DNA of 23,347 nt from an uncultured Bacteroides sp. (lineage in GTDB: Bacteria; Bacteroidota; Bacteroidia; Bacteroidales; UBA11471). The position numbers and the translations under genes were made by a program. The notes under the pieces were generated by a model that saw nothing but the letters and a program-made list of their open reading frames with translations, was not told where the DNA came from and did not search any database. The stretch covers positions 1 through 23,347 of the forward strand of contig CAJLYN010000010.1 in NCBI GenBank assembly GCA_905210875.1. The letters are read 5' to 3'. Below, one piece after another: positions 5,845-13,717 of the stretch (its first letter is position 1; each line of letters opens with the position of its first letter).

Positions 5845-6402
5845 ATGAAAAAGTTACGTTATCTAACCATTTGGGTCATTCTGTTTCACGCACTGCCTAT
5901 GGCAAACATCAATGCCCAAAACGCCTCCTTGGTCGTCTATTTCTCACACAGCGGCCATACCCGGAGTGTTGCCCAAGAAATAAAAAACAATACGGGTGCG
6001 GCTATCTTTGAAATTATCCCGGAGAAAAACTATCCCTCCAACTACCAAACTCTCTTAGACCAAGCCAAAGCCGAAATCAACTCCGGGACACATCCGGCCA
6101 TCAAACCTCTTGATTCTGGAATCGAATCGTATGACACCATATATGTAGGCTCTCCTTGCTGGTGGGGCACCATAGCTCCCCCCGTAGCAACATTCTTATC
6201 GTCTTACGATTTTTCGGGCAAAGTAATTGCACCCTTTATGACACACGAAGGAAGTGGCATGGGACACAGCGAAAAAGACATACGTGCGCTCTGTCCAAAG
6301 GCTGTTCTACTCAAAGGCCTTCCCATCAGAGGTAGTCTCTCTGATCAAGCTGCCACTCAAATAAAAGAGTGGTTGCAGGAATCGATATACCGACAAAATT
6401 AA
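5845..6402 (+). CDS. exported flavodoxin-like protein (flavodoxin_4 type)
   Basis: This 185-residue FMN-binding flavodoxin fold carries a Sec signal peptide. I start it at ATG 5845 rather than GTG 5821. The ATG gives a textbook signal (MKKLR, hydrophobic core to about residue 20, cleavage near INA|Q25), and a candidate -7 element sits just before 5821. The mature part begins with a beta strand and the phosphate loop SHSGHTRS (about residues 34-41). It continues with the flavin-flanking segment SPCWWGTIAPPV and the MTHEGSGMGHSEKDI loop typical of flavodoxin_4 proteins. Classical flavodoxins are cytosolic, so a secretion signal implies a periplasmic electron carrier or quinone/metal reductase (inference). 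It is the first gene of the nine-gene run and precedes a cytosolic paralogue. Confidence 0.88.
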   Translation: MKKLRYLTIWVILFHALPMANINAQNASLVVYFSHSGHTRSVAQEIKNNTGAAIFEIIPEKNYPSNYQTLLDQAKAEINSGTHPAIKPLDSGIESYDTIYVGSPCWWGTIAPPVATFLSSYDFSGKVIAPFMTHEGSGMGHSEKDIRALCPKAVLLKGLPIRGSLSDQAATQIKEWLQESIYRQN

Positions 6403-6428
6403 TTGTACAATTTAAACCTCTCCGTTAT

Positions 6429-6965
6429 ATGACATCAAATACTCTTATTGCATTTTTCTCTCGCAAAGGATTCAATTATGTCAACGGCAGTATTATTAAC
6501 CTACCTGTCGGAAACACTGAGGTAATTGCACGGAAAATACAACTTCTCACGGGAGGTGGCAGCAATTTGTTTCAAATTCTTCCTGAAAACCCATATCCCG
6601 AATATTATACCGAGACAACCACCTTGGCTCAAAAAGAATTAAGAGAGAATGCACGCCCCAGACTTTGCCGAAAACTCGACGACATGGCCTCGTACAATAC
6701 CATATTCCTCGGTTATCCCAACTGGTGGGGGACAATGCCCATGGCTGTGTTCACATTCTTTGAACAGTACAACTTCTCGGGAAAACGCATCGCCCCATTT
6801 TGCACACATGAAGGTAGCGGATTGGGAAGCAGCGAACGAGACATCAAACACTTATGTCCCGGAGCCATAGTCGTACCGGGACTGGCTATACGTGGCGGAG
6901 AAGTGGGACAGGCCGACCGTCTCATCAAGGAATGGCTACAAGCAAACGACCTCATACAAAAATAA
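6429..6965 (+). CDS. cytosolic flavodoxin (flavodoxin_4 type)
   Basis: This 178-residue flavodoxin is a paralogue of the preceding gene but has no signal peptide. The frame is open back to GTG 6369, inside the previous gene. ATG 6429 is chosen because it lies after the previous stop and opens directly into the first beta strand (NTLIAFFSRKG). The phosphate-loop region has the longer form seen in this family, with NYVNGSIINLPVGNTE at about residues 14-29. The conserved GYPNWWGTMP and CTHEGSGLGSSERDI segments follow. It should bind FMN and carry electrons in the cytoplasm, perhaps feeding the NapH-like Fe-S protein encoded 10 bases downstream (inference). Confidence 0.88.
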   Translation: MTSNTLIAFFSRKGFNYVNGSIINLPVGNTEVIARKIQLLTGGGSNLFQILPENPYPEYYTETTTLAQKELRENARPRLCRKLDDMASYNTIFLGYPNWWGTMPMAVFTFFEQYNFSGKRIAPFCTHEGSGLGSSERDIKHLCPGAIVVPGLAIRGGEVGQADRLIKEWLQANDLIQK

Positions 6966-6974
6966 AATCCTGTT

Positions 6975-12168: not shown

Positions 12169-12180
12169 AATCATATAACT

Positions 12181-12693
12181 ATGCAGACCTCAACCGTAAG
12201 ACTCTACTCTCTCTCCTACCGCCAGGCAAAGACCTACGGCATCGCCCTTCTTTTTGTGGCCGGCAACATCGTGCTGCCGCAACTCTTCCACCTGCTGCCA
12301 CAAGGGGGTGTAACCTGGCTGCCCATCTATTTCTTCACCCTGATTGCCGCCTACAAATATGGCTGGAAGGCCGGCCTGCTCACAGCCGTACTTTCGCCGG
12401 TTGTCAACAGCCTGCTCTTCGGTATGCCCGCCGCAGCGGCCCTACCCGCCATTCTGCTGAAATCGGGACTCCTTGCCGCTGCCGCCGCCATAGCTGCGGC
12501 CCGCTTTCAAAAAGCCTCGCTGGTGCTGCTTGCCGCAGTTGTCGTGTGCTACCAGGGTCTGGGGCTGATAGGCGAATGGGCCCTGACCGGAGACCTCGGC
12601 CTGGCTACCCAGGATTTCCGCATAGGAATCCCCGGAATGATTCTGCAAGTGGTAGGCGGATATTTTTGCATCAATTACATAATACGTAAATAA
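12181..12693 (+). CDS. ECF-type transporter S component (substrate-binding membrane protein)
   Basis: This 170-residue, strongly hydrophobic protein has about five to six membrane helices. It has the look of the S components of energy-coupling-factor transporters: small, with a helix pair around YKYGWKAGLLTAVLSPVVNSLLFG (about residues 59-82) carrying the glycine/proline/asparagine pattern of this superfamily. S components bind vitamins, cofactor precursors or metals in the membrane. No EcfA, EcfA' or EcfT gene is in the window, so it would use a shared module elsewhere or act alone. It sits between the TonB receptor and tatA, starts 12 bases after the receptor, and overlaps tatA by one base (TAATG). 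The substrate cannot be inferred. Confidence 0.7.
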   Translation: MQTSTVRLYSLSYRQAKTYGIALLFVAGNIVLPQLFHLLPQGGVTWLPIYFFTLIAAYKYGWKAGLLTAVLSPVVNSLLFGMPAAAALPAILLKSGLLAAAAAIAAARFQKASLVLLAAVVVCYQGLGLIGEWALTGDLGLATQDFRIGIPGMILQVVGGYFCINYIIRK

Positions 12694-12917
12694 TGAATAC
12701 ACTACTGCTAATCGGAGGCATCGGCATGCAGGAAATCCTTGTCATTGCCCTCATCGTGTTACTGCTCTTCGGCGGGAAAAAGATTCCCGAACTGATGAAA
12801 GGCATCGGCAAAGGAGTGCGCAGCTTCAAAGACGGTGTAAACGGTATTGAGAAAGAGGGCGAAAGCAACGACGGCCCGAACACCTCCAAATCCAAAGAAA
12901 ACGACCAGTCCAAATGA
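12693..12917 (+). CDS. tatA: Sec-independent protein translocase subunit TatA/E
   Basis: This 74-residue protein forms the Tat pore oligomer. It has a short N-terminal membrane helix (about residues 12-26), the hinge motif LLFGGKKIPELMKG, an amphipathic helix (IGKGVRSFKDGV) and a charged, disordered tail. I use ATG 12693, which overlaps the preceding stop. An internal Met12 is possible, but the short MNTLLLIGGIG lead is common in Bacteroidetes TatA. The stop overlaps tatC by four bases (ATGA). No separate tatB is present, so TatA probably serves both roles, as in minimal TatAC systems. Confidence 0.93.
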   Translation: MNTLLLIGGIGMQEILVIALIVLLLFGGKKIPELMKGIGKGVRSFKDGVNGIEKEGESNDGPNTSKSKENDQSK

Positions 12918-13717
12918 ATAGTCGGGAGAACGACGCCACTCAAAGTTTTTGGGAGCATCTCGACGACCTGCGAGCTTGTCTCATAAGAATAGTACTGGTC
13001 GTTCTGGTGCTGGGTATCGCGGCTTTCCTGTTCAAAGAAGAACTCTTTGCCGTCATACTCGGTCCGCAAAACGAGCACTTCATTACCTACCGTCTTCTTG
13101 ACAAGATAGGGAGCATCTGGGGTGTTGCTGCGGCACCGTTCTCGGTCGAACTCATCAATACGGGCCTGGCCCGGCAATTCACGACACACATGACGGCCGC
13201 CATATATGCGGCTGTCTTGTGTGCATCGCCTTATATTCTCTATCAGCTGTTCCGATTTGTTTCGCCGGCACTTTACGTGAACGAGAAAAAATATGTCGTG
13301 CGGGCCGTCTCGTACAGCTATCTGCTGTTCATGGGCGGCGTATTGCTGAGCTATTTTCTCATCTTTCCGCTGACATTCCGTTTTCTCGGGACCTACCAGG
13401 TAAGCCCCGAGGTAGCCAATCTCATCACCCTGCAATCCTACATGGACACGCTCATGACCATCACCCTCATGATGGGTGTCTTGTTTGAGATTCCCATCTT
13501 ATGCTGGCTGTTTGCCCGCCTGGGTATTCTCACCGAGTCGTTCATGCGGAAATACCGCCGGCACGCCATCGTGGTCATACTCATCGTTGCCGCCATCATC
13601 ACCCCCACGGCCGACGTGTTTACCCTCACTGTCGTATCCCTGCCCATATACCTGCTCTACGAGGGAAGCATCTGCATCGTGCGGCGCTCCCAGAGAAAAG
13701 AGATTCAAAATTCTTAA
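12914..13717 (+). CDS. tatC: Sec-independent protein translocase subunit TatC
   Basis: This 267-residue inner-membrane protein recognises twin-arginine signals. The N-terminal family motif SFWEHLDDLRACLIR (about residues 11-25) is followed by six predicted membrane helices and the conserved segments SPYILYQLFRFVSPALY and RRHAIVVILIVAAIITPTADV. Length is normal. It is the last gene of the nine-gene run. Two upstream products carry twin-arginine motifs, so the translocase lies beside its likely cargo, although it may also serve the whole cell. No terminator with a clear T-run is seen in the 42 bases before the convergent regulator gene. Confidence 0.95.
   Translation: MNSRENDATQSFWEHLDDLRACLIRIVLVVLVLGIAAFLFKEELFAVILGPQNEHFITYRLLDKIGSIWGVAAAPFSVELINTGLARQFTTHMTAAIYAAVLCASPYILYQLFRFVSPALYVNEKKYVVRAVSYSYLLFMGGVLLSYFLIFPLTFRFLGTYQVSPEVANLITLQSYMDTLMTITLMMGVLFEIPILCWLFARLGILTESFMRKYRRHAIVVILIVAAIITPTADVFTLTVVSLPIYLLYEGSICIVRRSQRKEIQNS

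Follow-up and report, generated by a model that had tools for sequence, protein, structure and literature searches.

A modular gene cluster of Bacteroidales that joins a NapH-NapG fusion and a Tat-signal Fe-S aldo/keto reductase to uptake genes and tatAC

NapAB is the partner of NapGH in nitrate respiration, and in Bacillus subtilis the TatAdCd pair is encoded next to phoD, the gene of its substrate. Proteins leave by Tat already folded and loaded with their cofactors, and S components serve vitamin import. The NapGH proteins of E. coli and Wolinella, as cited in PMC5449189, are two protein types for which quinol oxidation is presumed. That paper describes a NapH-NapG fusion from the delta proteobacterium MLMS-1, with membrane segments and cytoplasmic clusters, an internal twin-arginine motif and four periplasmic cluster motifs, and reports Tat-dependent export of reporters by the membrane part of a fused NapH-NapG protein. 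On the uptake side, BtuM sets a precedent: it functions as an S component in the absence of EcfT, none having been found in its organism (PMC6072759).

Here we compare with these systems a gene cluster from an uncultured Bacteroides sp., carried by a stretch of 23,347 nucleotides (contig CAJLYN010000010.1, positions 1 to 23,347) that we refer to as the window. A first-pass annotation had read nine same-strand ORFs at 5845-13717 as one possible redox, uptake and Tat system. All nine are real and lie on the + strand, with gaps of at most 26 bases or overlaps of 8, 1 and 4, and their identities are borne out by Pfam and NCBIfam profiles and, for the S component, by predicted structure:

5565..5620, + strand: terminator-like hairpin with a T run, separating the upstream RND operon from the cluster (fold -22.1 kcal/mol, z -4.14)
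5845..6402, + strand: flavodoxin A (fldA), with an N-terminal signal-like segment, non-core (Flavodoxin_4, 104.7 bits; hydrophobic segment 4-22)
6429..6965, + strand: flavodoxin B (fldB), non-core (Flavodoxin_4, 88.3 bits)
6975..8453, + strand: NapH-NapG fusion polyferredoxin (NapH/NapG-type Fer4 families; cysteine and RR conservation)
8466..9866, + strand: predicted Tat-signal lipoprotein aldo/keto reductase with two 4Fe-4S motifs (Pfam Aldo_ket_red and Fer4)
9876..10301, + strand: DUF1893, TM1506 family (PF08973, 170.6 bits; PDB relatives 1vk9 and 9e9a)
10294..12168, + strand: TonB-dependent outer-membrane receptor (Pfam plug and barrel)
12181..12693, + strand: ECF-type S component that is probably solitary (its predicted fold agrees with solved S components)
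12693..12917, + strand: tatA (TIGR01411, 62.2 bits against a cut-off of 53.9)
12914..13717, + strand: tatC, of a mostly cluster-borne lineage (TIGR00945, 165.5 bits against a cut-off of 132.7; tree)

None of 200 shuffles folds as well as the hairpin at 5565-5620, which is missing from the list given by a consensus terminator scan. A convergent AraC gene lies 3' of the cluster. As the window holds no exact match to the Bacteroides-type promoter pattern, a single transcript for the cluster is what we infer; a sigma-70-type promoter scan of the window (13 observed, 9.7 expected) was left unused. Two RND efflux operons flank the cluster, at 119-5559 and 14783-20393 of the window.

The two flavodoxins are paralogues (47% identical). 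FldA is probably exported by Sec, judging from its N-terminal segment; a signal sequence was looked for in FldB, whose start we placed at ATG 6429 in an ORF that opens at GTG 6369, and none was seen. Both were considered as core members of the cluster and rejected: among three congeners read, G001 and G371 lack them and G266 has one.

The NapH-NapG fusion is a single chain with a membrane part, an internal RRQFL motif and then four 4Fe-4S motifs. Its four N-terminal hydrophobic segments (7-25, 44-62, 107-125 and 172-190; a fifth, at 65-83, overlaps a cysteine motif) and the presence of Fe-S motifs on both sides of the twin-arginine region ARRQFLATAGILMAGAIEAQEKK give it the layout of the MLMS-1 fusion. 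As expected of such fusions, the internal twin-arginine motif precedes a weakly hydrophobic stretch and then positive charge; no segment there passes the hydrophobicity threshold. Twenty-eight cysteines are common to all 93 fusions compared, and the internal motif reads RR in 86 of the 93 and RK in five more. The chain scores below the NCBIfam cut-offs for both NapG (75.8 bits, cut-off 269) and NapH/MauN (71 bits, cut-off 213.05); hence, by profile, it is of the same protein type as NapG and NapH without being either of them. It differs from the NapGH of nitrate respiration in that the two proteins are fused and that an aldo/keto reductase takes the place of NapAB, and from the MLMS-1 fusion in being linked to an uptake module and to an exported Fe-S aldo/keto reductase, partners not named in the passages of PMC5449189 consulted.

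Outside Bacteroidales, NapH-NapG fusions were matched in 20 sampled genomes of Bacteroidota besides G001. A DUF362 gene with a twin-arginine N-terminus stands immediately upstream of the fusion at 18 of these 20 loci (L211-L230; the DUF362 identity was checked with Pfam for three of the 18 proteins), and no reductase was found near the fusion in the 6-11 kb read at the 20 loci. Outside the order, DUF362 thus seems to stand in for the reductase beside the fusion, which suggests that the catalytic partner can be swapped; on this view, the NapH-NapG fusion would serve as an all-purpose electron module whose exported partners can be exchanged. DUF362 proteins are present in some Bacteroidales clusters too, there with a leader of Sec-like type. 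DUF362 and the lactate racemase superfamily belong to a common Pfam clan (PMC11770544). At one further locus, in G306 (L203:145-1788), a diverged fusion is followed directly by tatA and tatC, and the reductase does not occur in the stretch read.

The reductase belongs to the aldo/keto reductase superfamily by its barrel fold and D-Y-K-H tetrad, as do its relatives in the PDB (AKR11C1 and L-galactose dehydrogenases), from which it departs by its Tat lipoprotein leader, its C-terminal part with two Fe-S motifs and its probably periplasmic location. The TAT_signal model gives 19.6 bits, just under the cut-off of 22.7, and the leader ends in a lipobox (LYGC), so that the protein is probably a Tat-exported lipoprotein. 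Eight cysteines are common to all 94 pooled reductases. The twin-arginine motif occurs in 86 of the 94, 80 of these with a lipobox; four Alistipes-type reductases (L095, L096, L100 and L106) have GR in place of RR, a point against the system favoured below. A candidate NADP(H)-binding segment, SGM...HL..N, is kept in 92-94 of the 94. With invariant cysteines and twin-arginine motifs in both the fusions and the reductases, the envelope electron route proposed in the first-pass annotation is well supported by the architecture of the proteins.

Matches to the reductase above 570 bits occur at 34 places in 31 of 198 genomes of the order. All seven sampled genomes of the genus to which the window belongs have the reductase. 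Thirty-three of these neighbourhoods were read at length, the 34th being left out: napGH immediately adjoins the reductase in 29, lies four genes upstream on the same strand in L078, and is absent from the vicinity in L075, L079 and L082. In G337 (L063:8634-10478), the reductase and DUF1893 form one ORF, a single case that could be an error; if true, it would take DUF1893 to the periplasm.

The uptake genes resemble the pair formed by BtuB and the solitary BtuM of PMC6072759, in that a TonB receptor is accompanied by an S component in genomes mostly without EcfT. Among solved chains, profile comparison places E. coli BtuB nearest to the receptor (119 bits), but the receptor falls far below the BtuB family cut-off (TIGR01779, 152 bits against 599.7). 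The S component scores below its Pfam cut-off (23.3 against 30.7 bits) and takes the S-component fold in its predicted structure; unlike BtuM, it has no conserved cysteine and no sequence match to any PDB chain up to E 10. Across 42 sequences, no cysteine stands among the invariant or nearly invariant columns, so the cobalamin-binding cysteine of BtuM is not conserved; BtuM is absent from the structure matches listed, which excludes nothing. Vitamin B12 was considered as the substrate, BtuB being the nearest solved chain, and rejected on the BtuB family cut-off and the missing BtuM cysteine. EcfT (CbiQ) scores above its cut-off in 19 of the 198 genomes of the order, and the S component occurs in 22, only three of which have such an EcfT; as the other 19 lack one, the S component is probably solitary. 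The assignment is accordingly limited to the fold and to a solitary mode, and does not extend to an ECF transporter. Nor did a riboswitch hint at the substrate: none was found in the window or at 16 of the best 80 (of at least 592) named loci, where only tRNA matches were obtained.

DUF1893 belongs to the family of TM1506, which has a cytidine-deaminase fold; in an alignment of 18 DUF1893 sequences, the conserved columns contain neither of the zinc motifs of cytidine-deaminase enzymes (H/C-x-E and PCxxC). The gene occurs in 20 of the 198 genomes of the order and in one of 198 genomes drawn from the phylum (G001). DUF1893 and the TonB receptor form one ORF at L060/L105 (same genome), L107, L126, L142, L134, L156, L056 and L090, with the signal sequence of the receptor in mid-frame. 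At L090 and L107, there is no ATG, GTG or TTG among the codons shown ahead of the receptor signal core, so that both proteins may be made there as a single chain split by signal peptidase; the B. fragilis loci have an ATG at the likely receptor start. A small putative lipoprotein lies between DUF1893 and the S component at L138:10408-11028 and L165:10412-11041, and a Pfam search with the L138 protein gave no match. In L168 (near 7316-10400), napGH and the reductase are absent upstream of DUF1893 when compared with L151, and two genes further upstream resemble those of L151 in length and overlap, as if the napGH-reductase pair had been lost, to judge by gene lengths.

TatC was found in 164 of the 198 genomes of the order, in all 31 with the reductase and in all 25 named cluster genomes searched. 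The copy beside cluster genes is the sole match in G001 (83% complete; its TatC is identical to that of the window), G266, G346, G239, G318, G199 and G216, and a second TatC is present in G371, G227 and G349. In a tree of 75 proteins, with identical sequences entered once and with L200 (381 aa) and L249 (Phocaeicola abscessus) left out by length filters, 21 of 22 cluster-borne copies fall in one set of 30 rows (support 100/98), together with nine unlinked ones, and 20 of the 22 in a set of 24 rows (99/89) with four unlinked; the only cluster-borne copy outside the 30-row set is L111. The cluster label changes five times on the tree, against about 19 in shuffles (0 of 500 as low). Cluster copies of Dysgonomonas macrotermitis and Dysgonomonas sp. 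216 lie inside the set, with the unlinked ones of Dysgonomonas sp. 25 and P4677 in another; likewise, the cluster copy of Bacteroides ilei lies inside the 30-row set, and the unlinked TatC of B. fragilis, B. finegoldii, B. xylanisolvens, B. faecalis, B. acidifaciens, B. congonensis and B. muris are placed in that other set.

The grouping associates a TatAC lineage with the module, although common ancestry of the genomes may account for part of it. Strict dedication is opposed by the many sole copies, the nine unlinked members and L111: where the cluster TatC is the only one, it would have to serve all Tat substrates. The idea that the operon carries its own translocase is retained for a minority of loci (tatC within about 10 kb at 16 of the best 80 of at least 592) and weakened by the genomes in which no other TatC was found. 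The arrangement recalls TatAdCd and phoD, a TatAC pair adjoining its substrate gene, and differs from it in substrate, in phylum and in that the cluster copy is the sole TatC found in several genomes.

To what extent are these genes kept together? A scan with a DUF1893 alignment gave at least 592 relatives, of which the best 80 loci were kept and all used, counting genes on any strand up to about 10 kb on each side (several loci are shorter). Near DUF1893 in these 80, napGH and the reductase are each found at 67 loci, the S component at 58, the receptor at 27, tatA at 19, tatC at 16 and fldA relatives at five. Relatives of the window's flanking genes are seldom there: the RND1 pump at five, the RND2 pump at two, AraC at one, and DUF3089 and alcohol dehydrogenase at none. 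Same-strand runs were counted at 71 of the 80 loci, the DUF1893 ORF being uncalled in nine (L099, L101, L112, L113, L129, L133, L136, L143 and L155), and include the reductase in 62, napGH in 59, the S component in 48, the receptor in 23, tatA in 15, tatC in 13, fldA in six and DUF362 in five. Parts of the order napGH, reductase, DUF1893, (receptor), S component, (tatAC) recur, often with overlapping genes, in Bacteroides, Dysgonomonas, Butyricimonas, Odoribacter, Alistipes, Phocaeicola, Paraprevotella and Breznakibacter. Conserved linkage, which the first-pass annotation had set as a check, therefore holds for seven of the nine genes (NapH-NapG fusion, reductase, DUF1893, receptor, S component, tatA and tatC) and fails for both flavodoxins, and by gene order these seven are a conserved, modular cluster in Bacteroidales.

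Co-occurrence among the 198 genomes of the order, uncorrected for kinship, points the same way. The reductase (31 genomes) and DUF1893 (20) are found together in 18 (3.1 expected, p 2e-15), DUF1893 and the S component (22) in 16 (2.2 expected, p 2e-15), and the reductase and the S component in 16 (3.4 expected, p 1e-10). Of the reductase genomes, 13 of 31 lack DUF1893 and 15 lack the S component, and six of the 22 S-component genomes lack the reductase. The suggested link to uptake is thus upheld by adjacency and co-occurrence and loosened by these absences, from which the reductase and the uptake genes look like two modules that often join.

The data show the order of the genes, their conservation and motifs, the predicted folds and the TatC lineage; on this basis we favour, at somewhat less than even confidence, a modular periplasmic redox-and-uptake system of Bacteroidales, in which quinol feeds an exported reductase and a small molecule is taken up. 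The NapH part would draw electrons, most likely from menaquinol, and its clusters would pass them to the NapG part, placed on the periplasmic side by Tat. NapG would then supply the reductase. This Tat-exported lipoprotein, carrying Fe-S clusters and, probably, a nicotinamide cofactor held tightly, would reduce the carbonyl of a small molecule or, in reverse, oxidise an alcohol. In clusters such as this one, outer-membrane passage of the substrate, or of a related micronutrient, would fall to the TonB receptor; the solitary S component would carry that compound or its product across the inner membrane, DUF1893 would handle the imported compound in the cytoplasm, and the module-associated tatAC would export both Fe-S proteins. 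Electron direction, cofactor, substrate and order of steps are what we infer here.

In favour of this redox-and-uptake system is the linkage kept across genera, where the flanks are not, together with the napGH genes beside the reductase, the co-occurrence, the twin-arginine motifs and lipoboxes, the reporter export of PMC5449189, the TatC tree and the TatC found in every reductase genome. Several points weigh against it. Passing electrons from 4Fe-4S clusters to nicotinamide ordinarily calls for a flavin; FldA or another exported flavodoxin could link the clusters to a nicotinamide-type site, yet most clusters lack one. Furthermore, the receptor is nearby at only 27 of the 80 best loci (of at least 592), and no riboswitch in the window or its 16 relatives names a substrate. 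Since the reductase occurs without uptake genes, and the S component without the reductase, a single pathway is not forced. A bolder line, which we hold to be less likely than not, is a salvage respiration: the receptor would bring in a carbonyl micronutrient, the quinol-driven Tat lipoprotein would reduce it, the S component would import the product and the zinc-less deaminase-fold DUF1893 would finish the work, with a co-inherited Tat lineage and with DUF362 as the replacement partner in other Bacteroidota.

The main rival, fairly unlikely in our estimate, holds that two independent modules have the promoter alone in common. One would be a respiratory carbonyl reductase, in which napGH and the reductase form an electron sink and the carbonyls, of dietary or host origin, enter through porins; the other would be a vitamin-type uptake set of DUF1893, receptor and S component. 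The genomes with one part and not the other (13 of 31 and six of 22, above) speak for it, as do L087, L089 and L152, where DUF1893 and the S component have no reductase beside them, although the genomes of L087 and L089 have one on another contig. Against it, 18 of the 20 DUF1893 genomes also have the reductase, some on another contig, and gene order is repeated from locus to locus, with frequent gene overlaps. The uptake genes fit substrate delivery and product import or else cofactor supply, in which the S component would import and DUF1893 process a precursor loaded into the reductase (or a flavodoxin) in the cytoplasm before Tat export, the receptor being the outer-membrane door. We regard cofactor supply as unlikely: it agrees with the folded, cofactor-loaded state of Tat cargo, with vitamin import by S components, with the co-occurrence of DUF1893, S component and reductase and with BtuB as the best solved match of the receptor, but the riboswitch searches of the window and 16 relatives gave nothing, and the 94 pooled reductases keep the same tetrad and cysteines, including those with no uptake pair nearby. 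Ordinary operon drift, with vertical descent keeping neighbours together in the absence of a common function, would suit the variable operon content between species and is very improbable given flank genes at 0-5 of the best 80 loci (of at least 592) against up to 67 for the core, and co-occurrence even without adjacency.

Literature searches, judged by titles and abstracts and with most subscription journals outside their coverage, returned no description of this gene system and nothing on DUF1893; one paper turned up for TM1506 and nine for DUF362. The loci lie in named species, among them Bacteroides fragilis, B. finegoldii, B. xylanisolvens and Butyricimonas synergistica, which makes the system testable. 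If true, the redox-and-uptake system would place an aldo/keto reductase in a quinol-linked periplasmic chain, give DUF1893 and DUF362 a functional context, add another solitary S component in Gram-negative bacteria, and provide a case of a TatAC lineage associated with the genes of its substrates.
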